This document shows positions 1-18,050 of a stretch of 20,833 nt of DNA, in pieces. The notes beneath the pieces were generated by a model, which ran no database searches, was not told where the DNA came from, and saw nothing but the letters and a program-made list of their open reading frames with translations. Every line of letters begins with the position of its first letter. Positions within the stretch are counted from its first letter, which is position 1. The position numbers were made by a program, and so were the translations under genes. This DNA comes from a virus. The DNA lies in IMG/VR virus record IMGVR_UViG_3300043775_004948, positions 1 through 20,833 of that record; one strand, given 5' to 3'.

Positions 1-453
1 ATGAATGAGGCTTGTTGGAGAGGTTATAAGCAAGTAGGCATGAAAAAGAAAGGTGGAAGAACAGTTCCAAATTGTGTTAAAGAAAATAAATTTTCTTTTG
101 CTGAATGGTTGAATGAGAATAAAAAAACAGACAATGAGTTTTTCTCATCATTGGTTAATGATGCTAAAAATTGGATTCCTCTGAGTGATAGAGAAGCAAA
201 AGAATTTTGGCAAAATGAAACTGATCTGGTTGATAGGTGGAATATCACAGAACCAGAGGAATTGCATAAAGTTAAACTTGAAATTCCGCTTGATCACATT
301 CAGAAGCTGAAAAATTATGATGATTCGATTGTAGACTTTTATAATTCTTTTGATATTTGGTTAAAGAATAAGTATAAAATGGATGTCGTCGATTTTATAG
401 ATTATGATTCTGGTGTCGTTTATCTAATTAAACCTATCAAGCATGGAATCTAA
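1..453 (+). CDS. Phage protein with CW-GY-Q-GM / VPNC motif
   Basis: A 150-residue protein whose ATG is the first base of the window, so its ribosome binding site and any upstream extension cannot be seen. Residues 5-26 carry a Cys-Trp-x-Gly-Tyr-Lys-Gln-x-Gly-Met-Lys segment followed by Thr-Val-Pro-Asn-Cys. From memory, this motif recurs in many otherwise unrelated proteins of T4-like and marine phages; its function is unknown to me. Just after it, FAEWLNENKK (about residues 33-42) resembles the short amphipathic capsid-targeting peptides of T4 internal head proteins, but it is internal here. The rest is acidic and mixed, without membrane segments or catalytic motifs. The stop lies two bases before the first Trp-rich mini-ORF, so the two may be translationally coupled. 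Function unknown; a virion role is only a guess. Confidence 0.7.
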   Translation: MNEACWRGYKQVGMKKKGGRTVPNCVKENKFSFAEWLNENKKTDNEFFSSLVNDAKNWIPLSDREAKEFWQNETDLVDRWNITEPEELHKVKLEIPLDHIQKLKNYDDSIVDFYNSFDIWLKNKYKMDVVDFIDYDSGVVYLIKPIKHGI

Positions 454-455
454 CC

Positions 456-626
456 ATGATTACTAGAATAAATTCTAACAATCACATGTATCATTTTTGG
501 TTTAGAAATATATCAATTTCTAGATTATGGAATGATGATTATTCTTTCTCTGGTTTTACCATTTTTTCTGAACACCATCGTGGTCAAATCTGTTCTGGGT
601 GGTGTTGGGCTTATAATGATTCTTAG
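456..626 (+). CDS. Trp-rich mini-protein W1 (56 aa)
   Basis: A 56-residue ORF starting two bases after the preceding stop. It begins MITRINSNNH and continues with spaced aromatic residues, ending near a Cys-Ser-Gly-Trp-Cys-Trp stretch. It aligns along its whole length with the next ORF: both share M-I-x-R-x-N-S-x-N-H, an Ile-Ser-x-Ser-Arg-x-Trp-Asn core, the block SGFTIFS, and a closing Ile-Cys...Cys-Trp-x-Tyr-Asn. This paralogy is the main evidence that it is coding. Its stop overlaps the start of the next copy by 11 bases. Neighbours belong to a family of 13 such ORFs. Function unknown; no signal peptide or enzyme motif seen. Confidence 0.6.
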   Translation: MITRINSNNHMYHFWFRNISISRLWNDDYSFSGFTIFSEHHRGQICSGWCWAYNDS

Positions 627-777
627 AGAAAATTCTTACAATCACACCAATTGGTGTTGGTCTGGAGACATATCGGTTTCCAGATCATGGAACAATCATT
701 GTTCTTACTCTGGATTTACTATTTTCTCTGTTCAGAATGGTCATATTTGTTGTGCGTGTTGGTCTTACAACGAATAA
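616..777 (+). CDS. Trp-rich mini-protein W2 (53 aa)
   Basis: A 53-residue paralogue of the preceding ORF. The ATG at 616 is preferred over an in-frame ATG at 532 because it restores the family N-terminus (MILRENSYNH) and because the upstream extension lies antiparallel in frame to W1. Shared blocks with W1 are the M-I-x-R-x-N-S start, Ile-Ser-Val-Ser-Arg-Ser-Trp-Asn, SGFTIFS and a Cys-Cys-Ala-Cys-Trp-Ser-Tyr-Asn end. Five cysteines in 53 residues could bind metal or form disulfides, but this is conjecture. The 11-base overlap with W1 suggests coupled translation. A long imperfect hairpin begins directly after the stop. Confidence 0.6.
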   Translation: MILRENSYNHTNWCWSGDISVSRSWNNHCSYSGFTIFSVQNGHICCACWSYNE

Positions 778-845: not shown

Positions 846-1373
846 ATGGGAATAACTCTTGGTACTCTTTCTAGCATTGCTCAAGATTGCATCATGCATT
901 TTCCTAATTACCAAATAATCGTTGGTAATTATTCAGGAATAGCACGAAGAGTAACATTTCTTTGTGGTGGACCAATAGACCATGCATGTATGCATCATCC
1001 TACTGTCAGTACTTTCAGATTCAGGTCACATTATCCTAATTCCAATTATCCAATAGGAAAAGACAGAGGCCCAATCATAATTGGCTCTGACTGCTTGATT
1101 GGAACTGAAGCAATGATATTTGGAGGCGTCACTGTAGGCCATGGCTCTATAGTTGGAGCTAGGGCTGTGATAACTAAAGATATACCACCATTTGCCATAG
1201 TTGCAGGCAACCCTGCAAAAATAATTAGATACAGATTTGAAAAAAATGTAATAGATCAATTAATGAAAATACAATGGTGGAACTGGGAAAAAGAAAAAGT
1301 AGAAAGAAATCTTGATCTTCTTGCAGATATAAACAAGTTTCTGGAAATTCATGGTAAGGAGTACACAACATGA
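846..1373 (+). CDS. Left-handed beta-helix (XAT/CAT-type) O-acetyltransferase
   Basis: A 175-residue member of the hexapeptide-repeat acyltransferases, which move an acetyl group from acetyl-CoA to a sugar or small-molecule hydroxyl. Isoleucine/valine-spaced turns run from about residue 70 to 125 (for example PIIIGSDCLIGTEAMIFGGV). The family's acetyl-CoA-side closing block is visible as AIVAGNPAKIIRYRF at about 117-131. A histidine-rich loop near residues 46-52 lies where the XAT catalytic histidine is expected. Length fits the family (170-220). The AGAGG at 835-839 supports the start. The TGA overlaps the next ORF's ATG (ATGA). Such genes in phages usually modify surface polysaccharides or glycans; with three glycosyltransferases downstream this fits, but the acceptor is unknown. 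Confidence 0.88.
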   Translation: MGITLGTLSSIAQDCIMHFPNYQIIVGNYSGIARRVTFLCGGPIDHACMHHPTVSTFRFRSHYPNSNYPIGKDRGPIIIGSDCLIGTEAMIFGGVTVGHGSIVGARAVITKDIPPFAIVAGNPAKIIRYRFEKNVIDQLMKIQWWNWEKEKVERNLDLLADINKFLEIHGKEYTT

Positions 1374-1585
1374 GCTTCAGATTACTTCCTTTTTCCAGCA
1401 TCAAATGTTGGATAGGAAATTTGAATCACAGCATGACATGGAATTGTTTTTATTTTGGAAGGCATTTCCAAAAACGTAGAATCTTTAGAATCGTTCCAGA
1501 CTCTTGGACAAGAAAAAAATATGCTTCTCGTGTTTTTGACATTCATGATTCGTTCGTATCCGATTGCTGGAGCAAAAAAATATGA
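1370..1585 (+). CDS. Trp/Phe/Arg-rich mini-protein W3 (71 aa)
   Basis: A 71-residue basic, aromatic ORF whose ATG overlaps the acetyltransferase stop (ATGA), as is typical of this array. The start MSFR departs from the usual M-I-x-[KR], but a Cys-Trp follows at residues 13-14 (SIKCWIGN), then regularly spaced Trp residues and a Cys-Trp-Ser at the end. The composition (Trp, Phe, Arg, Ser, His, Asn) matches the other members, and its own TGA overlaps the ATG of W4. No recognisable domain. Assignment rests on composition and the gene-overlap pattern. Confidence 0.5.
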   Translation: MSFRLLPFSSIKCWIGNLNHSMTWNCFYFGRHFQKRRIFRIVPDSWTRKKYASRVFDIHDSFVSDCWSKKI

Positions 1586-1767
1586 TTCTTAGAGCAAACA
1601 CACATAATAAATCTAGAGAATGGTCTAGATCGACAATGATGTCAAACTGGAGAAATATTGATTCTTATAGGAATATTCGTTCTACATGGTGGATTTTTGG
1701 GGAAAAATTATATAGGTCTATGCCGTGGCGTTGGTCTATGTTTTGGGATGGCGATGGCTTAATATAG
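1582..1767 (+). CDS. Trp-rich mini-protein W4 (61 aa)
   Basis: A 61-residue ORF. The ATG at 1582 is preferred over an in-frame ATG at 1564 because it overlaps the W3 stop as ATGA and gives the family start MILRANTHNK, close to MILRENSYNH of W2. Eight Trp residues follow, many in the setting Trp-Ser or Arg-x-Trp, ending Pro-Trp-Arg-Trp-Ser-Met-Phe-Trp. Strongly basic. The stop overlaps AGGAG (1766-1770), the ribosome binding site of the next gene. Function unknown. Confidence 0.58.
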   Translation: MILRANTHNKSREWSRSTMMSNWRNIDSYRNIRSTWWIFGEKLYRSMPWRWSMFWDGDGLI

Positions 1768-2273: not shown

Positions 2274-2717
2274 ATGAAGATTGTTCCTATTGGCTTAAAA
2301 AAAGCAAATGAAATTGTTTTACAATGGCATCGACATCATAAACCCAGCGTTGGACATAAATTTAGCATAGGTTTAACTAAAGATGATGCTTATGTAGGTA
2401 TTGCTATTTGTGGCAGACCAGTTGCTCGTGCTTCAGATGATGGTTTAACTCTTGAGGTGGCAAGACTATGCACTGATGGCACACCTAACGCTTGTTCAAA
2501 ACTGTATGGTGCCTGCGCTCGGATTGCTAAAGAAATGGGTTATACAAAAATACAAACCTACATATTACAAAGCGAACCGGGCACGAGTCTCAAAGCAAGT
2601 GGTTGGATTATGGAAGCAGTAACAAATGGTGGTCAATGGAAAAGAAATGACGGAGTCGTTAATAGAACGGATCAGCCAACAGAAGCCAAGCAAAGATGGG
2701 TTAGGTTTCTATCGTAG
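2274..2717 (+). CDS. XF1762 family protein (GNAT-like fold)
   Basis: A 147-residue protein matching, from memory, the XF1762 family found in phages and prophages. Diagnostic blocks are WHRHHKP (18-24), VGHKFSIG (26-33), the Gly-Arg-Pro-Val-Ala-Arg segment, LTLEVARLCTDGTPNACS (about 59-76) and ASGW near residue 109. The Leu-x-Leu-x-Arg-x-x-x strand followed by a helix and a Gly-Tyr end is reminiscent of the GNAT acetyl-CoA-binding core, but the family has no demonstrated reaction. The start is the first ATG; the upstream Shine-Dalgarno is weak. A clear AGAGG separates it from the next mini-ORF rather than an overlap. Confidence 0.85.
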   Translation: MKIVPIGLKKANEIVLQWHRHHKPSVGHKFSIGLTKDDAYVGIAICGRPVARASDDGLTLEVARLCTDGTPNACSKLYGACARIAKEMGYTKIQTYILQSEPGTSLKASGWIMEAVTNGGQWKRNDGVVNRTDQPTEAKQRWVRFLS

Positions 2718-2737
2718 TGGCATAGAGGATTTGACAT

Positions 2738-2902
2738 ATGTTCAAAACTGGCGAATGTTGTTGCAGGGCTTTTGCTGACAACAGATGGTGGTCTTGGTCT
2801 TGGTGGAATAGTTCTTGGATTTTTGGAGAATCTTTTTGTTGGTCACAGAACATAGTTAATTCTTCAGAAGATTGCATGACTTTGTTTAAAGGTGAAATAT
2901 GA
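2738..2902 (+). CDS. Trp-rich mini-protein W5 (54 aa), head of a six-ORF chain
   Basis: A 54-residue ORF preceded by AGAGGA at about 2723-2728, the only good ribosome binding site for the following chain of six ORFs. It starts MFKTGECCCR and has seven Trp residues in a run such as RWWSWSWWNSSW (16-27), ending Lys-Gly-Glu-Ile like W8 and W9 (Gly-Gly-Glu-Ile). The TGA overlaps the next ATG (ATGA). An ORF also exists on the opposite strand, but the chained overlaps, shared starts and shared endings are all on the plus strand. Confidence 0.6.
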   Translation: MFKTGECCCRAFADNRWWSWSWWNSSWIFGESFCWSQNIVNSSEDCMTLFKGEI

Positions 2903-3021
2903 TTTTCAAACACAATCGCAACAGGTCATCTAGATGCTGGTCTGTGCTTCAGCGTTGGACTAGGTCTTGGTCTTGGAACATGTCTTGCTTTAGACCTAAG
3001 CATTGGTATGATCATGCATGA
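2899..3021 (+). CDS. Trp/Arg-rich mini-protein W6 (40 aa)
   Basis: A 40-residue ORF linked to its neighbours by ATGA at both ends. It starts MIFKHNRNRSSRCWS and continues with Arg-Trp-Thr-Arg-Ser-Trp-Ser-Trp-Asn, the family pattern of Arg/Lys at position 4, Asn at 6 and Cys-Trp near residue 14. It is highly basic. There is no room for an independent ribosome binding site other than GGTG inside the upstream ORF, so termination-reinitiation is likely. Confidence 0.58.
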   Translation: MIFKHNRNRSSRCWSVLQRWTRSWSWNMSCFRPKHWYDHA

Positions 3022-3062
3022 TCATTAAAATCAATAGGTCTTTATTTAGTGGTAATTTATGA
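3018..3062 (+). CDS. 14-residue mini-ORF W7, probable truncated copy
   Basis: A 14-residue frame, MIIKINRSLFSGNL, with ATGA overlaps to both neighbours. It retains only the family N-terminus (M-I-I-K-x-N). It is either a decayed copy kept as a translational link or a bona fide leader-like peptide. Its preservation of phase with W6 and W8 is the main reason to list it. Confidence 0.4.
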   Translation: MIIKINRSLFSGNL

Positions 3063-3262
3063 TATTAAAAATATTTTGGGAAAGGTCTAGTAGATCTTGG
3101 TCTTGCATGTCTAGGTCTTGGTCTGGACCATTTGATCAATGGTCGAACATGTGGGCTATGTCTAGGTCTAGGTCTAGGTCTTGGTCTTGGTATAATTCTA
3201 GAACTGAGTCTTGGTCTTGGAACAATGATGATTCTTGGTCTAAATTTGGTGGCGAAATATGA
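3059..3262 (+). CDS. Trp/Ser/Arg-repeat mini-protein W8 (67 aa)
   Basis: A 67-residue ORF with ten Trp. Trp falls at residues 7, 14, 21 and 28, a seven-residue period, then at 32, 42, 44, 52, 54 and 60. Much of it is Ser-Arg / Ser-Trp dipeptides encoded by TCTAGG and TCTTGG hexamers. It begins MILKIFWERSSRSWS and ends SWSKFGGEI, an ending shared exactly with W9. Both ends overlap neighbours by ATGA. There is no known fold; RS-like dipeptides suggest disorder or nucleic-acid contact, but that is speculation. Confidence 0.6.
   Translation: MILKIFWERSSRSWSCMSRSWSGPFDQWSNMWAMSRSRSRSWSWYNSRTESWSWNNDDSWSKFGGEI
3161..3190 (+). repeat. TCT(A/T)GG hexamer tandem repeat, five units
   Basis: Three TCTAGG units followed by two TCTTGG units, in frame inside W8, encoding Ser-Arg x3 then Ser-Trp x2. 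A single A/T change toggles Arg (AGG) and Trp (TGG). Related isolated hexamers lie on both sides. Confidence 0.85.
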
Positions 3263-3312
3263 TTATCTTCAGCAAATTTAGTTCTTGTCGATGTTGGAAA
3301 GATGATTCTTGG
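3223..3312 (+). repeat. 90-bp exact direct repeat, copy 1
   Basis: An exact copy of 3393-3482, offset by 170 bases. It covers the end of W8, the ATGA junction and the first 18 codons of W9. The offset nearly equals the length of W9, which is what an unequal duplication of one array unit would leave. Sequences just upstream are also similar but not identical. Confidence 0.95.
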
Positions 3313-3432
3313 TTGGCGATGCTGCCGAAGCAGATGTCTTGGTCGTGGTCGTGGTCTAGGTCTAGGGCTTGGGCTTGGTCTAAGTCTTGGAGCAATGATG
3401 ATTCTTGGTCTAAATTTGGTGGCGAAATATGA
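3259..3432 (+). CDS. Trp/Ser-repeat mini-protein W9 (57 aa)
   Basis: A 57-residue ORF with nine Trp. It starts MIIFSKFSSCRCWKDDSW, identical over 18 residues to W10, and ends NDDSWSKFGGEI, identical to the end of W8. It is therefore visibly a unit created by duplication. Its centre is nine consecutive hexamers (3337-3390) giving SWSWSWSRSRAWAWSKSW. ATGA overlaps at both ends. Function unknown. Confidence 0.6.
   Translation: MIIFSKFSSCRCWKDDSWLAMLPKQMSWSWSWSRSRAWAWSKSWSNDDSWSKFGGEI
3337..3390 (+). repeat. Nine diverged TCTTGG-type hexamers
   Basis: Units read TCTTGG, TCGTGG x2, TCTAGG x2, GCTTGG x2, TCTAAG, TCTTGG. All are in frame in W9 and encode Ser/Ala followed by Trp, Arg or Lys. The variation shows both unit duplication and point change. 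Confidence 0.85.
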
Positions 3433-3482
3433 TTATCTTCAGCAAATTTAGTTCTTGTCGATGTTGGAAAGATGATTCTTGG
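3393..3482 (+). repeat. 90-bp exact direct repeat, copy 2
   Basis: Matches 3223-3312 base for base. It spans the end of W9, the ATGA junction and the first 18 codons of W10. Identity ends abruptly after GATGATTCTTGG, where W10 diverges to a different tail. Confidence 0.95.
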
Positions 3483-3593
3483 CATTATATTTACCAAAGT
3501 AAAACTTGGTTCGATAATCATTCCAGACCTTTTACGAATGTGTTTTTTAGTTTTCTCTTTGCCAAGGAACGATTGAAAAGCTTGATACGTTGA
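3429..3593 (+). CDS. Mini-protein W10 (54 aa), last of the chain
   Basis: A 54-residue ORF sharing its first 18 residues exactly with W9, then diverging: His-Tyr-Ile-Tyr-Gln and an aromatic, basic tail with fewer Trp residues. It closes the six-ORF ATGA chain that began at 2738. The non-repeat tail may preserve an older member onto which the duplicated head of W9 was fused. A 63-base spacer follows, then a gene with its own ribosome binding site. Confidence 0.55.
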   Translation: MIIFSKFSSCRCWKDDSWHYIYQSKTWFDNHSRPFTNVFFSFLFAKERLKSLIR

Positions 3594-3656
3594 CTTTTTG
3601 AATTAATCGTGTTGAGATAAGGTCATAAAAGATAGTTCCATCAAAGGAGTAGTAAG

Positions 3657-3893
3657 ATGAAGTACACTGTTAAGATTACGTCAACGCAAACACACACGAT
3701 TGATGTGGTTGCAAATAATCGACATGAGGCTCTTGAAAAAGCCGAAGAAACTTTAAGATATGCTGATGCCAATCAGTATCAGACAGAATTGGAAAACATT
3801 GCTGATGTAGTAATGCTCGAAGCAACAGGGTGCGAATGGAGCTACCAGCAAAATCCCGATTCAAAAGTCTGGCAGAGGAGCTTTAAATCATGA
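3657..3893 (+). CDS. Small DpnD/PcfM-like phage protein
   Basis: A 78-residue protein with strong AAAGGAG seven bases before the ATG. It opens with two beta-like segments (MKYTVKITST, HTIDVVANN) and then a helix HEALEKAEETL. This strand-strand-helix start with Glu-Ala near position 30 resembles the small DpnD/PcfM-like family common in phages and plasmids; the similarity is judged by eye. The rest is acidic, with a Trp-Ser-Tyr near residue 61. Function unknown. Its TGA overlaps the start of the next Trp-rich ORF as ATGA. Confidence 0.75.
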   Translation: MKYTVKITSTQTHTIDVVANNRHEALEKAEETLRYADANQYQTELENIADVVMLEATGCEWSYQQNPDSKVWQRSFKS

Positions 3894-4102
3894 TATTTAA
3901 AAGAAACAATGTGTTTTCATGCGTCCCTTTTAAAGGATTTTATTCCTTTAGCACATTTAGTTTTGACGTGTTATGTAGATCTGATCATGGTCGTTTACAG
4001 TTCCATGATTCGCATGTACATGGCAGAAACAGATCTGTTCATTGGAACAATAGCGTTAGAAGTAGTTGTTTATTGAGGAGAGAAAATGAACGTGTGTATT
4101 AA
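3890..4102 (+). CDS. Aromatic/basic mini-protein W11 (70 aa)
   Basis: A 70-residue ORF with family start MIFKRNNVFSCV, coupled to the upstream gene by ATGA. It is rich in Phe, Ser, His, Arg and Asn and contains only one Trp (VHWNNS), so it is a more distant member. It contains the GAGGAG (4075-4080) used by the next ORF, which overlaps it by 17 bases. Confidence 0.5.
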   Translation: MIFKRNNVFSCVPFKGFYSFSTFSFDVLCRSDHGRLQFHDSHVHGRNRSVHWNNSVRSSCLLRRENERVY

Positions 4103-4295
4103 AAGTATATCAGATAATTACTGCTGGTCTGCTGGCAGGTCAAGTTCTATTTATTTCAGAAGACAGATAACTACATCCGATTTATGGTCAATGAGTTGGT
4201 TTTGCTCTTGGTCTATGTTCAAACCTTGTTCCTTTCATTGGACCAAGAGACATGCCTTTTCCATGCATTGGAATAGGAGCGAACAAACAGCATGA
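4086..4295 (+). CDS. Trp-rich mini-protein W12 (69 aa)
   Basis: A 69-residue ORF starting MNVCIKSISDNYCWSAGRSSS. GAGGAG lies five bases before the ATG, one of the few members with a strong site of its own. A Cys-Trp at 13-14 matches the family position, and further on come LWSMSWFCSWSMFKPC and two more Trp residues. Six of the 69 residues are Trp. It overlaps W11 by 17 bases and W13 by ATGA. No recognisable domain. Confidence 0.58.
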   Translation: MNVCIKSISDNYCWSAGRSSSIYFRRQITTSDLWSMSWFCSWSMFKPCSFHWTKRHAFSMHWNRSEQTA

Positions 4296-4483
4296 TAAGA
4301 AACATTTATCACACCAATAAGGAAAAATGCTGGAACAAGAATATGACACATTATGCCTTTGGTAGACATGAACTTGGAATCAGTTTAGAATGGAAAATGG
4401 GATATCCAATTAGCTTTCCTGATTCTTCCAAATGCTGGAACATTAAAGAAGAAGAACCTCAAATAATTTATTCCCACAACTGA
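4292..4483 (+). CDS. Mini-protein W13 (63 aa), end of the array
   Basis: A 63-residue ORF starting MIRNIYHTNKEKCWNKN, which keeps the M-I start, an Asn and the Cys-Trp at 13-14. A second Cys-Trp (SSKCWNIK) lies near residue 48. It is less Trp-rich than W5-W9. Its last 16 bases overlap the 3' end of the convergent glycosyltransferase gene, so the array ends exactly where the minus-strand block begins. Confidence 0.55.
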   Translation: MIRNIYHTNKEKCWNKNMTHYAFGRHELGISLEWKMGYPISFPDSSKCWNIKEEEPQIIYSHN

Positions 4484-5214
4484 CTCCACATCCATTCTAT
4501 GTACTTATTTTTGATAGCAATCAGTTCATCTTTATTCTGGCCTTCCTTTGGTTGACTACCACCCTTTAAATGATGTGCAATGTTACGCCCATCATACACA
4601 AATGTTTGCGAATACATGTCATTTAATTTTCCCAAATCAGGAATTGAACTCTTTTGAGACTCTCTAAAGAAAAAGAATGGCTTATTCTTCAATCTTATTC
4701 TTAATTGAAAACCAGTGTCATAATCACGATCATAAACCCAATTGTTACATTTATTACAAGGATGTGATTTGGCCCTCAAATCTAAATCTTTAATTTCATC
4801 AGTAATATAAGCTGCACCCCAAGGCATCGGGAAAGTATTCCCCCAATACTCTGTGCCAATAGCATGATATCCCATCTTGAAATAACTTTCAAAAAATGAC
4901 AATATATCTTTCTTCATCCAAAAAAAGTCTGGGTCCATTAGCAAAATGTATTTGCCTTTAGCCATTTGAACACATGCATTCAATCCCAAACCATGTCCAT
5001 GACATCCCGGCGATACACTAGGAGTCTGAACTATTCTCGTTCTATTATATTTTTTGCGAATATCATCGAAAGAAGCAGTTCCTTGAATGTTCTCATTGTC
5101 ATAAACAATAAACTCAAAATCACTACAAAATTCATGAAAATATTTTGCATGATATTGTATGAATTCCAAAGAATCCCAATTCGTTATTCCTATTGTCCAC
5201 TTTAACCTAGCCAT
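4468..5214 (-). CDS. GT2-like glycosyltransferase, paralogue 1
   Basis: A 248-residue GT-A-fold protein predicted to transfer a sugar from a nucleotide-sugar donor. The N-terminus has the nucleotide-binding start WTIGITNWDSLEF and the strand FEFIVYDN (33-40), followed by LLMDPDFFWM. In that block D94-x-D96 is the metal-binding DXD motif. Downstream blocks shared with both neighbours are MPWGAAYITDEI, YDTGFQLRIRL and IAHHLKGGSQ. There is no membrane segment, so it is probably cytosolic. It is the last of three tandem paralogues separated by 6 and 29 bases. AGGA precedes the start. Acceptor unknown: DNA, virion protein or host glycan are all possible. Confidence 0.85.
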   Translation of the reverse strand: MARLKWTIGITNWDSLEFIQYHAKYFHEFCSDFEFIVYDNENIQGTASFDDIRKKYNRTRIVQTPSVSPGCHGHGLGLNACVQMAKGKYILLMDPDFFWMKKDILSFFESYFKMGYHAIGTEYWGNTFPMPWGAAYITDEIKDLDLRAKSHPCNKCNNWVYDRDYDTGFQLRIRLKNKPFFFFRESQKSSIPDLGKLNDMYSQTFVYDGRNIAHHLKGGSQPKEGQNKDELIAIKNKYIEWMWSQLWE

Positions 5215-5220
5215 AAATCC

Positions 5221-5973
5221 TCAATCTTGTAAATTACTCCAGAAATATTCAATATACTTTTTTCTCGCAATAATCATCTCATTATTGACAAAATCTTTAT
5301 GCAAATCTGTGTTTTTGTATTCTCCCCTCATCAAATGATGAGCAATAAAATTACCATCATATACAAAACTAATTGGATTAAATGAATAAAAATGGTTTCC
5401 CATATAAGGAACACATTTAGACATAACTCTTCTAAAACCAAAATGAGGCTGATTATGCAGCCTAACTCTTATCTCCCAACCAGTATCAGACCACTTGTCC
5501 AAAAGCTTATTATTACATTTATCACAATATTTTTCAACTCTGGCCGTACAATCTAAATCACGAATTTCATCAGTGTAGTATGCTGCTCCCCAAGGCATCG
5601 GAAATGGATGATCCCAAAATTCCGTTCCAATCGCATGATAACCCTGATCAAAATAATGCTCAAAAACTCTTAAAATAGACTTCTTCATCCAGAAAAAATC
5701 TGGGTCCATAATCAAAATATATTTACCTGATGCCTCACCTAAACAATTATTGATTCCACCACCATGAGATAAGTTTTTACCATCAGGATAAATAATTTTT
5801 ACTTTTTCATACTTTTCAGCAATAACATCTAACTCTTCCGACTGATAAGGCCTTGTATTATCACAAACTAAAAATTCAAAATCATCAGAAAATGAATGGA
5901 AAAATTTAGCGTGATATTCAATAAATTCAATTGAATTCCAATTGACTAAAGCTATTGTCCATTTGTTCGACAT
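5221..5973 (-). CDS. GT2-like glycosyltransferase, paralogue 2
   Basis: A 250-residue paralogue, the most diverged of the three. It has WTIALVNWNSIEF at the N-terminus, FEFLVCDN (33-40) and the DXD motif in IMDPDFFWMKK (D90, D92). The conserved blocks PMPWGAAYYTDEIRDLD and IAHHLMRGE follow. A Cys-x-x-Cys (YCDKCNN) sits where paralogue 1 has Cys-Asn-Lys-Cys, while paralogue 3 has lost the second Cys. Its C-terminal third differs most, so it may use another acceptor. Same strand and operon as the other two; the stop lies six bases before paralogue 1. Confidence 0.85.
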   Translation of the reverse strand: MSNKWTIALVNWNSIEFIEYHAKFFHSFSDDFEFLVCDNTRPYQSEELDVIAEKYEKVKIIYPDGKNLSHGGGINNCLGEASGKYILIMDPDFFWMKKSILRVFEHYFDQGYHAIGTEFWDHPFPMPWGAAYYTDEIRDLDCTARVEKYCDKCNNKLLDKWSDTGWEIRVRLHNQPHFGFRRVMSKCVPYMGNHFYSFNPISFVYDGNFIAHHLMRGEYKNTDLHKDFVNNEMIIARKKYIEYFWSNLQD

Positions 5974-6002
5974 AAACTAATTTAGTGAAATAAAAATTAA
6001 AA

Positions 6003-6746
6003 TCAATCGTATAATTGACTCCACATCCATTCTGTGTATTTACCCCTAATTTCTAAAATCTGCTCTTCCGTATAAGATCCCTCTATTTGACTTCCACCTT
6101 TTAAGTGATGAGCAATAACTTTTGTGTCATAAACATATGTTTGTGAGTATCCAGTATTGTATCTTCCCAAATCTGGCACTTGATTAAGAACCTGTCTAAA
6201 CGCCTGATGAGGTTTATTTCCAAGCCTTATTCTAATTTGCCAACCAGTATCATAATCTCTATCATATACCCACGTTCCATATTTCTCGCAAAAAGAAGAT
6301 TTTGCCATTAAATTCAAATCCCTGATTTCATCAGTAATATAAGCTGCACCCCAAGGCATCGGAAAGTCAGTTCCAGCATATTCTGTCCCAACAGCATGAT
6401 ATCCACATTCAAAATATGTTTCTAAAAATGACAATATATTTTTCTTCATCCAAAAAAAATCTGGGTCCATTAACAAAATATATCTACCCTCTGCCCTCTT
6501 CATACATTGATTAAGACCAATTCCATGTGACCCCCAACCACTATTCCTCCATTGTGAATTAACCCATTTCAATTTTGGATATTTCTCTTTAAGATCCTTG
6601 AATTTCTGTGTCTCAATATTACTTTCATTATCACAAACTAAAAATTCAAAATCATCAGAAAACTCATGAAAATATTTCAACTGATATTCAACGAAATCAA
6701 TTGACTTCCAATTCACAGTTCCTATCGTCCACTTAGGCTTTTCCAT
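6003..6746 (-). CDS. GT2-like glycosyltransferase, paralogue 3
   Basis: A 247-residue protein, first in the three-gene minus-strand set. Features are WTIGTVNWKSIDF, FEFLVCDN, DXD in LLMDPDFFWM (D94, D96), MPWGAAYITDEIRDLN, YDTGWQIRIRLGNKP and IAHHLKGGSQ. It is closer to paralogue 1 than to paralogue 2. The short divergent spacer to the plus-strand gene at 6797 holds A+T-rich sequence including AATAAATA close to the start; no strong Shine-Dalgarno is seen. Tandem amplification suggests an ordered chain of sugar additions or antigenic diversification. Confidence 0.85.
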   Translation of the reverse strand: MEKPKWTIGTVNWKSIDFVEYQLKYFHEFSDDFEFLVCDNESNIETQKFKDLKEKYPKLKWVNSQWRNSGWGSHGIGLNQCMKRAEGRYILLMDPDFFWMKKNILSFLETYFECGYHAVGTEYAGTDFPMPWGAAYITDEIRDLNLMAKSSFCEKYGTWVYDRDYDTGWQIRIRLGNKPHQAFRQVLNQVPDLGRYNTGYSQTYVYDTKVIAHHLKGGSQIEGSYTEEQILEIRGKYTEWMWSQLYD

Positions 6747-6796: not shown

Positions 6797-7609
6797 ATGC
6801 TCAAATTCAATGAATTCATCAAAGAAAAATACGAAAACCAATTTTTTATAGAAACTGGAACAAGCAAATATGAATTGCTTATGATTGAAAACGAAGTTAT
6901 CAGCAAAATTGATAACCTTTTAGATAAAGAAAAATCAACCAAAGAAGAAGAACCCGAAACTAAAAATCCACCCGAAAATAAAGCTAAACCTAAATTAACA
7001 ATGGCCAAAGTATACGAATATTTCAAGAAAGCAATCAAGGCCCTCGGAATCGTTACAGTCATGGGCGCAGCTATTTATATCGGCTTTAGATTTGACTTCA
7101 TCAGAAAAATGTTCCCATTCCTAGCACCATTCATCGACGCAATAGGAAGCAAAACATACGAGTTCTTATCAAAATGGACTGGAAATTTTGGATACGATGC
7201 ATTCGTAAAACTTATGAACTGGTCAAAAGACTTCGCTATTTGGCTTGTCACAAAAGCCTCCGATATGCTAGGCATAACACCTGCAATCAAAAAAGCAATG
7301 GAACTACTCGGAATGGCACAAGATAAAGCATTAGATGTCGGAGATGATGTCTCCTCTTATCTAAAAGGCGGTACAAGTCAATACGACAACCCAGATTGGA
7401 CAAGAGATTCTGTTTATAGCAAAAGCCCAACATACGACGATGCAGGAAAATTATTGCCCAAAGATCAATGGAAACCATGGTCATACGACAGCCGCTCAAT
7501 ATACCCAACAACACCAAAAATCGATACTAATTTCCCTAGCCCAGAAGGACTCGCAGATAGATTCAATAAAACACCATCTTGGATGGATGATATCAAAAAA
7601 TTAAAATAA
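6797..7609 (+). CDS. Candidate packaged (ejection) protein with targeting peptide and membrane segment
   Basis: A 270-residue protein. Its first ten residues, MLKFNEFIKE, closely resemble T4 capsid-targeting sequences (such as MKTYQEFIAE of internal protein III), which send proteins into the prohead and are cut after Glu by gp21. An acidic, Lys/Glu/Pro-rich linker (45-68) leads to a hydrophobic stretch, about 80-98 (LGIVTVMGAAIYIGF), and further amphipathic helices to about 190. The C-terminal part is Pro/Tyr/Asp-rich. The layout suits a protein injected with the DNA that contacts the membrane, but this is inference. No clear ribosome binding site. It is convergent with the next gene, with only seven bases between them. 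Confidence 0.75.
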   Translation: MLKFNEFIKEKYENQFFIETGTSKYELLMIENEVISKIDNLLDKEKSTKEEEPETKNPPENKAKPKLTMAKVYEYFKKAIKALGIVTVMGAAIYIGFRFDFIRKMFPFLAPFIDAIGSKTYEFLSKWTGNFGYDAFVKLMNWSKDFAIWLVTKASDMLGITPAIKKAMELLGMAQDKALDVGDDVSSYLKGGTSQYDNPDWTRDSVYSKSPTYDDAGKLLPKDQWKPWSYDSRSIYPTTPKIDTNFPSPEGLADRFNKTPSWMDDIKKLK

Positions 7610-10258: not shown

Positions 10259-10933
10259 TCACTTTAACCAAATATATTCCTTGTAAACATTCTTGTTGCC
10301 TCTCGATTCAGTTAAAGGTTCAAATGGCAACCAAGTTCCTCCATCTGACTCACAAACAATCACCTGACCCATCCTATCCCTACACCATGTACCCAAAATA
10401 TCATAATCAATCAACTTGCTTCCATGCTTATAATATTTTCCACCCACATAATATGGCGGATCAATAAACCATGTCGCCTCACAATTTTCAACATCTCTAT
10501 AATCACCTAAATCAATTTTCCAATGCCTAATCTTTTCCAAATTTTCAGCAATATACTGTAACTTATAATCTTGTGTGTTAGGACGAACTACTGTTTTCCA
10601 TCTCGATGCTGTCTTCTTCGGCATAGATGGTGCTCCTGTTATGATAAAACCAACCAAATCCTTTCTCTCCTGACAATCCCACTCAAAATTATCCGTAGAT
10701 TCACCAAACTTCAAACGCCTTGTCGATAAAATATCTTCCTTGCTACATTTCTGTAACCATTTCCACAAATTAACCAACAATTCATACTTCTCAATCAAAT
10801 GAACTTCACGATCCCAATACAATAAGGAATATTGGGCAGTACCAGCAAATGGCTCTATTATTTTTGAATAACGTGGAACAGGATATTTCCCCGCAACCTT
10901 CGATTTACTACCATAATATCCCCACATTTTCAT
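10259..10933 (-). CDS. Dam-type (D12 class) N6-adenine DNA methyltransferase
   Basis: A 224-residue enzyme that would transfer methyl from S-adenosylmethionine to adenine N6. YYGSK (6-10) fits the N-terminal SAM-contacting motif, IIEPFAGTAQY (25-35) is motif I (SAM binding), and IDPPYY (157-162) is the DPPY catalytic motif, in the order of the D12/alpha group like T4 and E. coli Dam (about 260-278 residues). The recognition sequence cannot be read from the protein. Its ATG overlaps the nuclease stop by four bases, so the two are co-translated, and the gene is flanked by near-identical 22-bp repeats. Plausible roles are protecting phage DNA from host restriction or from the partner nuclease. 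Confidence 0.92.
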   Translation of the reverse strand: MKMWGYYGSKSKVAGKYPVPRYSKIIEPFAGTAQYSLLYWDREVHLIEKYELLVNLWKWLQKCSKEDILSTRRLKFGESTDNFEWDCQERKDLVGFIITGAPSMPKKTASRWKTVVRPNTQDYKLQYIAENLEKIRHWKIDLGDYRDVENCEATWFIDPPYYVGGKYYKHGSKLIDYDILGTWCRDRMGQVIVCESDGGTWLPFEPLTESRGNKNVYKEYIWLK

Positions 10934-10948
10934 GCCTCTTTCTTCTTC
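10927..10948 (-). repeat. 22-bp direct repeat flanking the methyltransferase gene, upstream copy
   Basis: This copy contains the last codons and stop of the nuclease gene and the first bases of the methyltransferase gene. Its partner is at 10233-10254, 694 bases away. Confidence 0.85.
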
Positions 10949-12456
10949 GCATAACTAGCCTTCATCTTCTCAGAACGACAAGGCTTACACATAGTACAAT
11001 ATCCATCACGCTTGCTCTTGTCAGGACTAAATTGCTCAAATAATTTAACTTCCTTACACTTATTACATTCCTTCTTGCCATCAGATGAATAAGGGTTATC
11101 TTTCCTCAAACTCAATTTGGGTTTGCTGCCAGCTATATGCCCTCCCTCACGCTCACAAATGTATCGCCCATTCCTAGCTATGTTCTTGTCATAAGTCAGC
11201 CTCAAAGCCATATGAACCTCATTACAGAAGACACAGGGGACTTCTACAGTTTTTGTAGCTATATGTTTTTTGTAATGTTTTTTCACACTTTCATTGTGAC
11301 GATCTCTTCTTTCTTCAACATAATCAATTCCTTGTATTTCTGAAAGAAACATGTCAGCCCAACAAACAGCTTTGTATTCAGAATCAAATCCCAGTTCTTT
11401 CTCTGTCCACAACTGGAATCTCCAACTGTTTTCACAAGCAATTTTCTTGTTGTCTTCAATTTGTTGCTTACATGCTTCTATTTTGAGTCTTGGTTTGACT
11501 TCAATTATTGAAACAACGCCAGATTTGTATGTAACGAGAAAATCAATAATTCTTTCCCTTCCGTCAATAGAAGCTGTAACTTGAGTAGTATAAAAATCAA
11601 CAGCTTCATCGTTGTCAAGTATTGTTGCTGCTCTTAACTCATAGCTTGATTGATAATAAATTGTTTTTGGTCTGCTTTTTTTAGTTTCATAAAAACCATG
11701 CCTGCGAGTAGCAAATGAATTTGTAACAACTTTCCTAATTTTGTATATCCAACGCTTTTTTCCAGCGTCATAAACCTGAACCAAACCTCTTTCTTCTGCC
11801 CATTCCCTTTCTGTCAGTCCTTCTGGACAGTCAACATTTTGCTTTTTTTGACTTTGTTTGCTGTAAGCTTTTTCAATGTTTTCACGCTCAACATAAAAGT
11901 AATCAGGAACTAATTCACTTTCTAAAGTAAAGCCGAGTTTATCATAAACAGTTCCAAGACTGTAACGATTATCACTAAAGCTGATTATCTTATCGATTCC
12001 TTGAGCTTTTGCCCAAACTAAAGCAGCATTAAATAATTTACTGGCTCCACCAACTACCCTTACACTATTCTTAAAACACATCCTATCAAGCAAAACATCT
12101 TCATTGTTACGATGATGTCTGCCCAAAGAAAGAACTCCTAGAAGCTCATCTCCTTCAAATATTCCAAATGCAATAATCGCAAGGGTGTTTGCTCCTTGAA
12201 TGTGATATTTATTACAGAATTTTCTCATCACATCAGTTTCAATTGCTGTTACTTTGCATTTTCTTGCAAAAACCGATCTCATGTTGTTGCTTGTATATGA
12301 ATTAACATGTGATTTGATCTGTTGTTCTTTTTTTATGAATTCATGTTTATAGAAAAGGAATGAATTAGGATTTATTTTACGGGCAACTTCAAGGACTTCC
12401 TTAGCCCAATGCTTGTTCTGATTTAACTCACTCATCACGATGATGTTTGGTTCCAT
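10930..12456 (-). CDS. Multidomain nuclease: GNAT-like fold + TnsA-like PD-(D/E)XK + zinc fingers
   Basis: A 508-residue protein. Residues about 60-190 look like a GNAT-type fold (TLAIIAFGIFEGDELLGVLSLG, then VVGGASKLFNAALVWAKAQG and a Tyr-Asp-Lys-Leu-Gly-Phe end), a module I recall from phage homing-type endonucleases. Residues about 262-355 form a PD-(D/E)XK core: YYQSSYELRA (Glu273), IDFLV (Asp305) and IIEVKP (Glu319, Lys321), spaced as in TnsA. The C-terminus has Cys pairs 408/411 and 464/467 with 487/490/493, the latter resembling zinc motifs beside HNH/EndoVII nucleases. AGAGG precedes the ATG, with a sigma70-like promoter upstream. Position next to the capsid gene and the adjoining methyltransferase suggest a free-standing homing endonuclease or a restriction-type partner. 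Confidence 0.8.
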   Translation of the reverse strand: MEPNIIVMSELNQNKHWAKEVLEVARKINPNSFLFYKHEFIKKEQQIKSHVNSYTSNNMRSVFARKCKVTAIETDVMRKFCNKYHIQGANTLAIIAFGIFEGDELLGVLSLGRHHRNNEDVLLDRMCFKNSVRVVGGASKLFNAALVWAKAQGIDKIISFSDNRYSLGTVYDKLGFTLESELVPDYFYVERENIEKAYSKQSQKKQNVDCPEGLTEREWAEERGLVQVYDAGKKRWIYKIRKVVTNSFATRRHGFYETKKSRPKTIYYQSSYELRAATILDNDEAVDFYTTQVTASIDGRERIIDFLVTYKSGVVSIIEVKPRLKIEACKQQIEDNKKIACENSWRFQLWTEKELGFDSEYKAVCWADMFLSEIQGIDYVEERRDRHNESVKKHYKKHIATKTVEVPCVFCNEVHMALRLTYDKNIARNGRYICEREGGHIAGSKPKLSLRKDNPYSSDGKKECNKCKEVKLFEQFSPDKSKRDGYCTMCKPCRSEKMKASYAKKKEA

Positions 12457-12625: not shown

Positions 12626-14062
12626 TCAGATGACGAAATTAGCAATACTGAGGCGTGCGTAAAATTTTGCCCCCTCACGAAGCAACTTTTTGCCATAGCG
12701 TGTGAGAATTCCCTTGCGTGGGCAGAAGCTCTCAGGATCGAGAACAACTGGTGTCTGGGTGAGAGGAACGTATGGGCAGTAGAAGTAACCGCTGTCCATG
12801 TAACTATCGCCCTTATAACCCATTAGCAACTGGTTGCTTGGGAAGAGAGGATCTTTGTAGAGTCTCCAGCGATTGTTCACTGTGCCGACATACTGGATGC
12901 CGAGGCTTGAGGTGAAGGTTTCGGAAGGAGCAGGAGCGAAGCCAGCTGTAGCTGTTTCAAAGATTGAAGCAACTTCTGGGCTTGTTACGATCCAGTTAGC
13001 GCCACCACGAAGAGTCTTACGATGGATGACGTTGGAAATTTCTACGACCTTAACATAAAGGGATTCGTACTTTTCCTTGATGGTTTCGCCGAGTGCGGTG
13101 TTGAAGTCCCAAGCAGAGACAGTACCTGCGTTGTTACGAAGGTCGGTGAGGACTTCACGGTCGATTTCGAGGTTGATTTCCTGAGCGAGGACAGCGGTTA
13201 GTTCAGCTTCAGCGTCAAGATTGTGCTGTGAGCGGAGATCTTGCTGTGCTTCATAGGACCATACAGCCTTGAGCTTACGGGTTTTAGCAGCGATTTCTTC
13301 TGATTCAACGACGAGGTTGATTTCAGGGAGATCTTGGTTACATTCCATGTTGTACTCATAGGAGACAACTACGTTATTGCTACCGGGAGCGCCGTTCCAG
13401 TTAAGGACTAGTTCGCCAGTTGTGGTTCCAAGAGTACCGCTTGTTACCTTTGGTGAAGGTGTGCCGATATCTGAGAAGGTGAAAGTTCCGCCAGCTGATA
13501 CGGTAAATGTCTGGATAGCGGTTGCGCCATCATAGATTGTGCCTGTCATTGTGCCTGCGAGAACTGGTGTGTGTTCAAGAGGAGCGAACACGCTTTGTAC
13601 GCCTGCTCCAGCGTCAGTTGAGCTTGTTTCGTTCTGGATGAACTGGCTGGTGTAGAAGATGTCGAGGTTTGCAGTACCATCGGCTCTCTGCATCAGTGAG
13701 TTTGCATCATCACCGGGGAAACCGCCGATATTGCTAGCGCCACGGGTAGCACCCTTGTTGCTGGAATAGCGGAAGCGGAGGTAGTAAACCAAGCCGGTTG
13801 GGCCGAGCAATGGCTGTACTGATACGATTTTGTTAGCGATAAGCTGTGGATAGATACGACGGACGAGAGGAATTGAGATCCTCTTGAACTGTGCAACATC
13901 GCCAGTATCGGTTGAGACTTCGTTCATGAGTCTCTGGTTTTCGAGCAGAACTGCGGTAGCTGAGCGGACGTATCGATCCTGAATGCCTTCGAGGAGTCCG
14001 GTCTGCTTCCAACGAGTTTCTAGCTCCCTAGCCTCGTTCAAAAATCTAGAATTAGCGTTCAT
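12626..14062 (-). CDS. 23: Major capsid protein, T4 gp23-like
   Basis: A 478-residue HK97-fold capsid subunit. Blocks shared with T4 gp23 are LVRRIYPQLIA and SVQPLLGPTGLVYYLRFRY near the start, AVWSYEAQQDLRSQHNLDAEAEL and INLEIDREV in the middle (T4: AAYSIELAQDLRAVHGMDADAEL), and GYKGDSYMDSGYFYCPYVPLT near the end. It is shorter than T4 gp23 (521). The family's N-terminal segment is cut by the gp21 protease after Glu; LMNE/V at Glu48 is one candidate here. AGGA precedes the ATG. It follows scaffold and protease genes as in T4 and ends at a strong terminator. Its G+C is visibly higher than in the accessory genes, in keeping with a highly expressed conserved gene. Confidence 0.97.
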   Translation of the reverse strand: MNANSRFLNEARELETRWKQTGLLEGIQDRYVRSATAVLLENQRLMNEVSTDTGDVAQFKRISIPLVRRIYPQLIANKIVSVQPLLGPTGLVYYLRFRYSSNKGATRGASNIGGFPGDDANSLMQRADGTANLDIFYTSQFIQNETSSTDAGAGVQSVFAPLEHTPVLAGTMTGTIYDGATAIQTFTVSAGGTFTFSDIGTPSPKVTSGTLGTTTGELVLNWNGAPGSNNVVVSYEYNMECNQDLPEINLVVESEEIAAKTRKLKAVWSYEAQQDLRSQHNLDAEAELTAVLAQEINLEIDREVLTDLRNNAGTVSAWDFNTALGETIKEKYESLYVKVVEISNVIHRKTLRGGANWIVTSPEVASIFETATAGFAPAPSETFTSSLGIQYVGTVNNRWRLYKDPLFPSNQLLMGYKGDSYMDSGYFYCPYVPLTQTPVVLDPESFCPRKGILTRYGKKLLREGAKFYARLSIANFVI

Positions 14063-14097
14063 ATTATTTCCTATTCTTCGTTATAGCTAAAAGGAGT

Positions 14098-15000
14098 TCA
14101 CTTGGTTTGTTTCAGACCCGACAGGACCAACAGTTGGTCCATGTCAGAGTTACTAGTGTTATTGTTATTGTATTCAGCAATAACAACATTATCGCTAGCG
14201 TTATTACCTCTCCCCGTTACATTCTGTGCTTTCATGGTTCTTTCTTTCTGTTCGCTAAGAACATTGGACTTTCTTTCACGGGTTACGACTCTTCGGCTTT
14301 CCGTGATGAGGTCTTGTGCTTGTCGAACTGCTTCGTTCAGCTTTGTGTTTTCGGTGCTGATGCGAATATTTCTAGCTTCAAGGATTCTCATTTGTCCTTT
14401 TAGCTGTTCAACTTGACGAGTTGCTTCTTCTGCTTTTTCTGCATTGATTTCTGAGAAATCGTCATTGCTAAGGTAGTTGGAAGCGATATTAACAATTTTG
14501 TCGAGTGCGACTTTATGTTCTGCGATTCTTGGGTCGGAAACCAAGTCACGACGAGCTTGTTCGTATATTTCGCTACCTTTGAGTTGAAGGAACTGATCGA
14601 CTTTATCGACGATATATTCTTTCATTTCTGATAGTTTGTTATCATATTCTTCGTACATATTCACTTCGATATTTTCGTTCTTTGCACGTTCAGATTTGAG
14701 CATTTGGTATGCTTCTTCGTATCCTTCTTCGAGAGCGTCTTTGTATTCTTGTCCCTGAATTTCTAGTCGTGTACGCAGATCGCCGATGATTGCGTAGGCT
14801 TCTTCGTAGCCTTGTTCTGCAATATTTTCTGCTTCGGCCAATTCAGATGTAAGTTCAGCATAAGCCTCTTCGAGTTTGCTGTTGAATTCAGTCTCAAGGC
14901 TAGCCTTGGCCTGATCAAGTAGTTCGCCAACGGCGTTAGCTACTTCATTAACTTCATTCTCCGGTAGGAGATTTTTCAATGCTTCTACGATCTTGTCCAT
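14098..15000 (-). CDS. 22: Prohead scaffold core protein, T4 gp22-like
   Basis: A 300-residue, very acidic, almost wholly helical protein with long coiled-coil potential (residues 1-250: repeated Glu-Glu-Ala-Tyr and Leu-Glu heptads) and an Asn-rich linker before a short C-terminal helix (MDQLLVLSGLKQ). This composition and its place between protease and capsid genes identify it as the core around which the shell forms; in T4 it is destroyed by gp21 at maturation. Leu/Ile-x-Glu sites fitting that protease are frequent. T4 gp22 is 269 residues. The stop lies 35 bases before the capsid ATG; its own start is one base past the protease stop. Confidence 0.92.
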   Translation of the reverse strand: MDKIVEALKNLLPENEVNEVANAVGELLDQAKASLETEFNSKLEEAYAELTSELAEAENIAEQGYEEAYAIIGDLRTRLEIQGQEYKDALEEGYEEAYQMLKSERAKNENIEVNMYEEYDNKLSEMKEYIVDKVDQFLQLKGSEIYEQARRDLVSDPRIAEHKVALDKIVNIASNYLSNDDFSEINAEKAEEATRQVEQLKGQMRILEARNIRISTENTKLNEAVRQAQDLITESRRVVTRERKSNVLSEQKERTMKAQNVTGRGNNASDNVVIAEYNNNNTSNSDMDQLLVLSGLKQTK

Positions 15001-15001
15001 A

Positions 15002-15688
15002 TTAGCCTAACCTCGCTGTAATGTTTCTTGTTTTCTGATCAATGATGCCGCCTAAGCAAGCCAAAAGTGCATCTTTTCTGACATTATGTATGCGGGAGTT
15101 TTCATTTTTTACCGCATTTCTAGAAAATTCTGCATTATTGGTATTTGGGACATAACTTTCTTTCTTTCCACTCGGCACTTTCTCCTGAAAGGCTGAATGT
15201 GTGCTGGGATCTGCTACTGCGTCAAACGTAATGAGTTTGTAGCTTTCACCGATCACAAGGATTCCATTCTCGTCACTTCTTCCATTTCCAACGCCTCGAC
15301 TACTGATGCCGACACGGACTCCGTCGTTGATAAGTGCTTTTAGGATTTTGCCATGAGGGGTGTTGAGAATTTCTCCTTCGCCCATTAGGTTATTTCCTTC
15401 CCACCATAATTTAGTAACGACATGAGAGCATTTTTCAAAGTGGATGATGGAGTCAGTTGGGTGATCGAGTTCTCCGACTAATCCACGGCTACTGATTATT
15501 GGTACTAGTTTCTTGACATTTTCATCAAGAACAGCATATGGGTAGATTCTTTTATTTTTGTTAACTGCTTCTGCTTCTTGGAATTTACCTTTGAATTTTG
15601 TCAGTCCCCTATCGGAGACTGACTCATTGAGGCTCAAGGTAAAACCACCGTTATTGCAGCAATCAACTAGTAAGAATTGATTTTCCAT
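15002..15688 (-). CDS. 21: Prohead core maturation protease, T4 gp21-like
   Basis: A 228-residue serine protease (U9/S77-type, herpesvirus-assemblin-like) that cleaves scaffold, capsid and internal proteins inside the prohead. Blocks matching T4 gp21 are AEAVNKNKRIYP (39-50), GELDHP (72-77) with the likely catalytic His76, LWWEGNNLMGEGEIL, and VGISSRGVG (126-134) with Ser129/130 as nucleophile region, then DAVADPSTHSAF. The tail after about residue 170 is basic and variable, as expected for a region removed by autocleavage. AAAGGA precedes the ATG. It supplies the activity that would cut the capsid-targeting peptides proposed for other proteins in this window. Confidence 0.95.
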   Translation of the reverse strand: MENQFLLVDCCNNGGFTLSLNESVSDRGLTKFKGKFQEAEAVNKNKRIYPYAVLDENVKKLVPIISSRGLVGELDHPTDSIIHFEKCSHVVTKLWWEGNNLMGEGEILNTPHGKILKALINDGVRVGISSRGVGNGRSDENGILVIGESYKLITFDAVADPSTHSAFQEKVPSGKKESYVPNTNNAEFSRNAVKNENSRIHNVRKDALLACLGGIIDQKTRNITARLG

Positions 15689-15703
15689 TGAAATCCTTTC
15701 ATT

Positions 15704-17479: not shown

Positions 17480-17607
17480 GATCTGTTGACTCCCTTTATG
17501 ATAAGGTTCGTAAAATTTAATTGCGATTCGATGCTTGCCAATGAGAGTATCTATACTTCAAGATTAGATTTCACACCGCATTACTTGTTTTTTGTTTCCG
17601 CTCAATA

Positions 17608-17615
17608 TATAAGTA
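17608..17615 (+). promoter_or_regulatory. TATAAGTA, possible late-promoter box
   Basis: One base from TATAAATA, 17 bases before the first ATG of the plus-strand gene inside the head operon. Because that gene runs against the operon it needs its own promoter, and this is the only candidate seen. Confidence 0.45.
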
Positions 17616-17632
17616 TGCATTAACACACAAAA

Positions 17633-18013
17633 ATGGACAAAATAATGAAAACATTTCAACAATATCTTAATTTAAAGGAATTAGCTTCATATGATCATGA
17701 TCCTGTTGTTAATTCAGAAGATGGGATGGATGAAAAATCTAGTTCTGCTTTGGAAGTTGTAAAAAAGGCTTTGAAGAAGATGATGGATATTGCTCCTCAG
17801 GACATAGTTGCATTTTTGAATCAGAACAGAATGAAGCCTGAAATAAGAGATATTTTAAATGATTACAGGCTTGATTCATTTCAAAATATAGGTAGGAAGC
17901 ATCATGGTGGGATGAATGAAAAGGGATTAGGGAATGAGGATGGTCGCAAGCCTAAGCATGATGAGGAATTATATCCTAATGCAGCTGACGGTTATTCAGC
18001 CACCAAGGATTAA
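17633..18013 (+). CDS. Small candidate internal head protein (capsid-targeting N-terminus)
   Basis: A 126-residue ORF (or 122 if it starts at the second ATG, 17645). The N-terminus MKTFQQYLNLKE strongly resembles T4 capsid-targeting peptides (MKTYQEFIAE), with Leu-Lys-Glu as a gp21-type cleavage site; the 17645 start fits this best. A helical middle (SALEVVKKALKKMMDIAPQDIVAFLNQN) is followed by a hydrophilic, disordered His/Gly/Lys-rich tail. It lies in opposite orientation between the small zinc gene and the 591-residue gene, so it was probably inserted into the head operon. Predicted to be packaged with and possibly injected with DNA. Neither start has a good ribosome site. Confidence 0.72.
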   Translation: MDKIMKTFQQYLNLKELASYDHDPVVNSEDGMDEKSSSALEVVKKALKKMMDIAPQDIVAFLNQNRMKPEIRDILNDYRLDSFQNIGRKHHGGMNEKGLGNEDGRKPKHDEELYPNAADGYSATKD

Positions 18014-18050
18014 TTAAATAAAAAAAATATTTGTAATTTTTTTTAAATAA

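Follow-up and report, generated by a model that had tools for sequence, protein, structure and literature searches.

How does a phage come to carry six very small open reading frames (ORFs) in an unbroken chain, each starting in the ATGA in which its predecessor ends, and are these ORFs real genes? The question is raised by positions 2738 to 3593 of the window, by which we mean the whole stretch of DNA analyzed, a virus record of 20,833 bases (IMG/VR IMGVR_UViG_3300043775_004948). As the original prediction had stated, the plus-strand ORFs at 2738-2902, 2899-3021, 3018-3062, 3059-3262, 3259-3432, and 3429-3593 are joined by ATGA overlaps at 2899, 3018, 3059, 3259, and 3429, and the additional ATGA joints reported outside the chain are present at 1370, 1582, 3890, and 4292. 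The claim that five successive overlaps exceed random expectation also held. Of 1000 dinucleotide shuffles applied to 2601-3700, none gave an ATGA chain of more than four members (0/1000), and a chain of four arose once, compared with the six observed; the longest was again 4 in whole-window shuffles (n=200) and in 80 capsid-neighbor loci of related phages searched on both strands.

The genome from which the window comes is very likely that of a huge phage, because the capsid encoded here shares 81% identity with that of LR756511.1, an uncultured phage of 595 kb, and related capsids were found on contigs reaching 533 kb. A profile of the mini-proteins had no match in LR756511.1. The capsid, protease, and portal genes lie on the minus strand (12626-20833), and the chain is flanked on the plus strand by a Mom-like gene (2274-2717) before it and a conserved 78-aa gene (3657..3893) after it; the latter stands separate from the chain in the window, has its own SD, and gave a weak DpnD/PcfM-like match that fell below the cut-off. 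Searches against Rfam for structured RNA matched nothing in the window. Elsewhere on the minus strand, 10930-12456 encodes an apparent multidomain protein with a Mom-like acetyltransferase, a TnsA-like nuclease, and a C-terminal HNH/endonuclease VII-like match, and 4468-6746 holds three tandem genes of ~248 aa, two of which matched glycosyltransferase family 2 (the third was scanned against PHROGs only). The ORFs at window 1-453, L003:2144-2659, and L145:3845-5236 have in common an N-terminal stretch, MNEACW.GYKQ.GMKKKG.RTVPNC...FAEWLNE, with differing C-terminal parts, and this stretch may be a modular N-terminal tag.

Whether the ORFs encode proteins was addressed by codon comparison with the relatives L003, L145, L146, and L161, and chain ORFs 1, 2, and 4 were tested in this way. 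In the predicted frame dN/dS was 0.07-0.24 for 2738-2902, 0.10 for 2899-3021, and 0.19 for 3059-3262, and in the other two frames it was about 0.7-4.5 where defined. Because the low values are confined to the predicted frame, the members at 2738, 2899, and 3059 are, as judged by codon comparison, real proteins under purifying selection; in-frame gaps arise by construction in protein-guided alignments and were left out as evidence. The mini-ORFs that flank the chain, all on the plus strand, had values of 0.04-0.53. These are 616..777 (53 aa; 0.08-0.33), 1582..1767 (61 aa; 0.19-0.40), which has an ATGA joint to the mini-ORF at 1370..1585, itself joined by ATGA to an acetyltransferase gene (846-1373), 3890..4102 (0.09-0.46), which has an ATGA joint to the gene at 3657, 4086..4295 (69 aa, reading CWS...WSMSWFCSWSMF; 0.24-0.53; alignment A7), and 4292..4483 (63 aa; 0.04-0.25; alignment A5), joined by ATGA to the preceding ORF. 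A further member of the 616 family, 456..626 (56 aa; alignment A3), overlaps the next ORF by 11 nt.

The six members resemble one another in part. The shared starts (MI-x-K) and ends (F-x-GEI) noted in the original prediction are real, and a 170-nt tandem duplication contributes to them. The chain head, ORF 1 (54 aa), is preceded by the SD-like AGAGGA and has orthologues at L003:6465-6629, L145:6435-6572, and L161:2650-2814; ORF 2 (40 aa) has one at L003:6835-6957, and ORF 4 (67 aa) has one at L003:7477-7668. ORFs 4 and 5 (57 aa) are both rich in Ser-X and both end in SKFGGEI, ORF 5 forming the 170-nt duplication with its neighbor. The first 18 residues of ORF 6 (54 aa) are as in ORF 5, and the rest are different. 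Comparison of ORF 3 (14 aa, MIIKINRSLFSGNL) with the 60-aa ORF at L003:6954-7136 (MIIKTN...SFLFNGEL) showed that both ends are kept; ORF 3 is probably a unit of this kind from which the middle has been deleted.

Turnover of the units is seen across the four versions of the locus (the window, L003, L145, and L161), in which the arrangement is kept while the units change. The ATGA junctions are thus conserved in relatives: L003 has six ORFs with five ATGA joints, followed by a pair joined at 7665, and L145 has six ORFs with five ATGA joints and different bodies. L161 carries a shorter GTGA/ATGA chain, consisting of the head ORF, a GTGA-started ORF, and a third ORF, after which an ATGA joint leads directly to the equivalent of the gene at 3657; the GTGA-started ORF (2811-2933) combines the N terminus of window ORF 2 with the C terminus of another kind of unit. 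Separated ORFs, which had been named beforehand as a refuting case, do occur, locally at 7455/7477 in L003 and in many of the Ser-X arrays of other phages that are described below, where the spacing of 36 of the 66 neighbor pairs is other than -4. In L003 the ORF at 7282-7455 stops early, and the usual FNGDL end and the next ATGA lie in the frame of 7307-7480, so that the unit at 7282-7480 seems to be frameshifted.

How the internal members are started is indicated by the ends of the units. Two kinds of C terminus recur, F-(N/K/G)-G-E-I and S-K-S-W-(S/R)-K-(N/S)-I, and both encode an SD-like sequence (GGTGA or GGAG) directly ahead of the following ATG. The pairing predicted for the 16S 3' end averaged -6.5 kcal/mol at 21 chain-internal starts and -2.5 kcal/mol at 457 other ATGs in the four locus versions (Mann-Whitney p 6e-10, an optimistic value, as the starts are not fully independent, some being duplicates). 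In the window, the ATGA start of ORF 2 is preceded by the SD-like AAAGGTGAAAT (-8.0 kcal/mol), and only the starts at 3018 (-2.9 kcal/mol) and 3059 (-4.3 kcal/mol) are weak. The single ribosome site originally placed at the chain head was therefore an error, since SD-like sites precede most internal starts; most units carry the start signal of their neighbor, and the fixed product ratios that had been expected consequently do not follow. The proposed termination-reinitiation survives in part: coupled translation along the chain is likely, since relatives retain the overlaps despite the gain, loss, and resplicing of units, but reinitiation from one entry site is unnecessary given the internal SD-like sites.

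Linkage by overlap is a known device. An overlap of -4 nt is by far the commonest spacing of codirected prokaryotic genes (PMC10666635). SD motifs precede most overlapping genes, and their removal in Escherichia coli had effects that ranged from none to complete (PMC6728339). The chain is like the overlapping gene pairs with termination-reinitiation described in those studies in having start/stop overlaps (ATGA or GTGA), which are found at all five window junctions and are kept in relatives, and an SD-like motif within the 3' end of the preceding gene, which is found at most junctions. The systems in those reports are mostly pairs or operons of unrelated genes, whereas the chain is made up of paralogous mini-genes in which the duplicated unit carries the junction, and its coupling is a predicted one. 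It could be argued that this is an ordinary compact operon, in which every mini-gene is started from an SD of its own and the overlaps serve only to save space. The SD-like sites at most internal starts would permit independent initiation, the prevalence of -4 overlaps among prokaryotic genes is as such a reading would have it, and in many Ser-X arrays neighboring ORFs are separated by 4-12 nt, and an SD is evident for several of them. However, in the overlapping pairs that have been tested translation of the upstream gene was mostly required for that of the downstream one, even where an SD was present (PMC6728339), and the SDs at 3018 and 3059 are weak. We consider the compact-operon reading rather unlikely.

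In our preferred explanation, the six ORFs form an operon that encodes real small proteins and whose translation is coupled. A single kind of unit, extending from each ATGA to the following one, would have been duplicated in tandem, deleted, and spliced over and over to build it. The last codons of a unit usually appear to hold the ribosome-binding sequence and start codon of its neighbor and, as the junction forms part of the unit and lies at its end, units could be added, removed, or recombined without breaking the expression of the rest, as the four locus versions suggest. This explanation is supported by the six-ORF chains and the GTGA/ATGA chain of L161, which have differing members, purifying selection, the SD-coding C termini, the 170-nt duplication, the L161 splice, and the serine periodicity and similar arrays described below. 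The weak SDs of the internal starts at 3018 and 3059 count against it. Taken jointly, the architecture of the chain, its origin, and its coupled expression are probably as proposed here.

The chain proteins are short, and Trp, Ser, Arg, and Cys abound in them; a conserved head is followed by a body in which Ser alternates with a residue X that is mostly W, R, or G. Serine recurs at a distance of two more often than composition predicts in each of the four chains (window, p 0.001; other three, 0/2000 shuffles each), and the seven window mini-ORFs outside the chain lack this excess (p 0.19). Library searches gave little. The single-sequence Pfam and PHROGs queries comprised nine mini-proteins (616-777, 1582-1767, 2738-2902, 2899-3021, 3059-3262, 3259-3432, 3890-4102, 4086-4295, and 4292-4483) and the gene at 3657, leaving out 456-626, 1370-1585, 3018-3062, and 3429-3593; none of the nine matched Pfam, and two of the nine had PHROGs matches, all of them subthreshold. 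There was no match in NCBIfam for the three queried (2738-2902, 3059-3262, and 4086-4295), in PADLOC for four window mini-proteins, or among PDB sequences for a profile of 25 mini-proteins, and AlphaFold models of two families were too poor to use (mean pLDDT, 54 and 53). Neither megablast nor tblastn found annotated relatives of the chain, one search giving only a match with an E value of 8, although low-complexity masking limits BLAST here. In the open-licence literature we found no description of such repetitive, Trp-rich, or sticky small phage proteins.

Similar proteins are present in other phages. Viral contigs were scanned with a hexamer pattern that encodes the alternation, in a TCT version and a TCA/TCC/TCG version, and at least about 240 loci were recovered. 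With the class defined by an ORF length of ≤100 aa and at least eight alternating serines in a run, there are at least 127 distinct Ser-X mini-ORFs, often in tandem, in at least 65 viral loci. Each has a short head, often basic, followed by a Ser-X body in which X is mostly W, R, or G. The arrays come from many metagenomes (L166, L184, L207, L231, L249, L278, L417, L474, L521, and others among the at least 65 loci), with heads such as MIRGKKQKWS, MNQAxLRxGxD, MVTKRTKYRS, and MIKKSIYKRNIWS. Their flanks include terminase, UvsX, DNA polymerase, and helicase genes, and the contigs are therefore those of phages. Among the matches listed, 30 of 66 neighbor pairs (13 loci) overlap by four bases. In nine arrays of at least four members the heads are 53-94% identical, and agreement at X is about what random dealing predicts. 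The Ser-X proteins had no match in PHROGs and only low-complexity matches, far below cut-off, in NCBIfam, and BLAST searches for annotated relatives of three Ser-X loci, in which low-complexity sequence is masked, returned nothing useful. A tRNA supply matched to the serine and tryptophan load was considered and rejected, as there was no consistent tRNA set near the arrays. Bacterial genomes were scanned with a longer pattern that differs from the viral ones; of at least 120 loci, two among the matches listed had similar small Ser-X ORFs (L325:2045-2242 and L366:3166-3339, both on the minus strand of Patescibacteria MAG contigs), a count that says nothing of rarity in bacteria. These two may be phage contigs binned with their host.

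The window chain is similar in kind to the Ser-X arrays (e.g., L166, L184, L231, L249, L474, and L521), with which it shares small Trp/Ser/Arg proteins, a short conserved head, a Ser-X body, tandem arrangement, frequent ATGA joints, and a serine periodicity of two above composition. It differs in that the arrays have long, near-perfect runs (at least eight serines), whereas those of the window are short, with Cys, Asn, and His interspersed; the longest alternating run in a window unit is 5, below the cut-off of eight, which is reached by units at this locus in L145 (8) and L161 (12). The head MILR..EWS resembles MIILKAHEWA of L417, by eye only. Kinship is thus suggestive, not proven. Amino acid tandem-repeat proteins of Borg elements likewise have fast-evolving in-frame repeats that give disordered regions; those repeats are parts of larger proteins encoded by archaeal elements (PMC9879509), whereas the phage arrays consist of whole tiny proteins in tandem.

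It might be supposed that the hexamers act at the nucleic acid level, as a DNA or RNA repeat element of which the ORFs are by-products, since the serine codon is nearly uniform within an array and the hexamer keeps more than one frame open. The dN/dS values, far below 1 in the predicted frame only, argue against this, as do the conserved heads and junctions and the existence of arrays that use TCG or TCA throughout; in L231, TCG/TCA codons occur in one ORF whose sisters have TCT. Since whole arrays use these other codons, the common feature is the amino acid pattern. A repeat-only reading was rejected on the grounds of dN/dS and of the other serine codons in use, and we hold it to be very improbable.

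The amino acid pattern also bears on function. Among the matches listed, the Ser-X class has a median net charge of +10, with ~12% Trp and 39% Ser, and such cationic, Trp- and Ser-rich proteins suit a disordered binding role. We tentatively suggest, as a possibility that we hold in some doubt, that the mini-proteins may be disordered, sticky binders of nucleic acid or host proteins in takeover, with several variants made at once. Charge is not a shared rule in the window, because its members run from -2 to +9 (2738-2902, -2; 616-777, -1; 2899-3021, +7 in 40 residues), which counts against a single charge-based function. The same cationic, Trp-rich composition, including that of 2899-3021, would fit Trp/Arg-rich, membrane-active, antimicrobial-like peptides used for lysis or against competitors. 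Several mini-proteins are neutral or acidic, however, no signal or transmembrane feature was identified, and so high a serine content is unusual in antimicrobial-like peptides; we regard membrane activity as distinctly unlikely.

How the tails change is indicated by two close relatives, L201 and L236, which are 98.9% identical over 4.6 kb, with 7 mismatches in ~4.2 kb outside two arrays. The 171-base Ser-X tail at L201:6276-6446, compared with the reverse complement of L236, has 23 differences, all of them in X codons (first base, 21; second base, 2) and none in serine codons. In the second ORF the distal tail is kept, and near the head there are an 18-base difference and a few substitutions. 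Other close pairs show no change or one, so that tail divergence is known from a single pair. Recombination between look-alike units would explain the L201/L236 pattern. Variation limited to certain codon positions is also a property of the targets of diversity-generating retroelements (DGRs), and the confinement of changes to X codons, mostly at base 1, in this one close pair could be read as the work of a DGR or other targeted mutagenesis. None of 50 records, many of which are fragments, had a reverse transcriptase (RVT_1) match, whereas the control genomes did, and a DGR was rejected on this basis; moreover, the other close pairs are almost unchanged, L166 barely uses A at base 1, and recombination would account equally for the pattern. 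We attach next to no credence to targeted mutagenesis and favor recombination.

The novelty here would lie in the proteins, which are under selection, had no match in the libraries queried, and are seemingly part of a large set of phage mini-proteins, of a kind that low-complexity filters tend to hide. It is conceivable, although we would stop short of calling it probable, that phages widely carry an as yet undescribed, combinatorial class of mini-protein, in which a short conserved head is followed by a Ser-X body whose X residues are redealt by recombination between tandem copies, with changing sets of sticky binders and a built-in junction, and that the window chain is a worn, older member. 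If so, the built-in junction signal would let the set of mini-proteins grow and shrink freely. If the proteins are sticky takeover or counterdefense factors, such arrays would be a natural combinatorial library, with a conserved head, free X positions, and serine spacers. The array may in this way illustrate the growth of a multigene family that leaves expression of its operon undisturbed.
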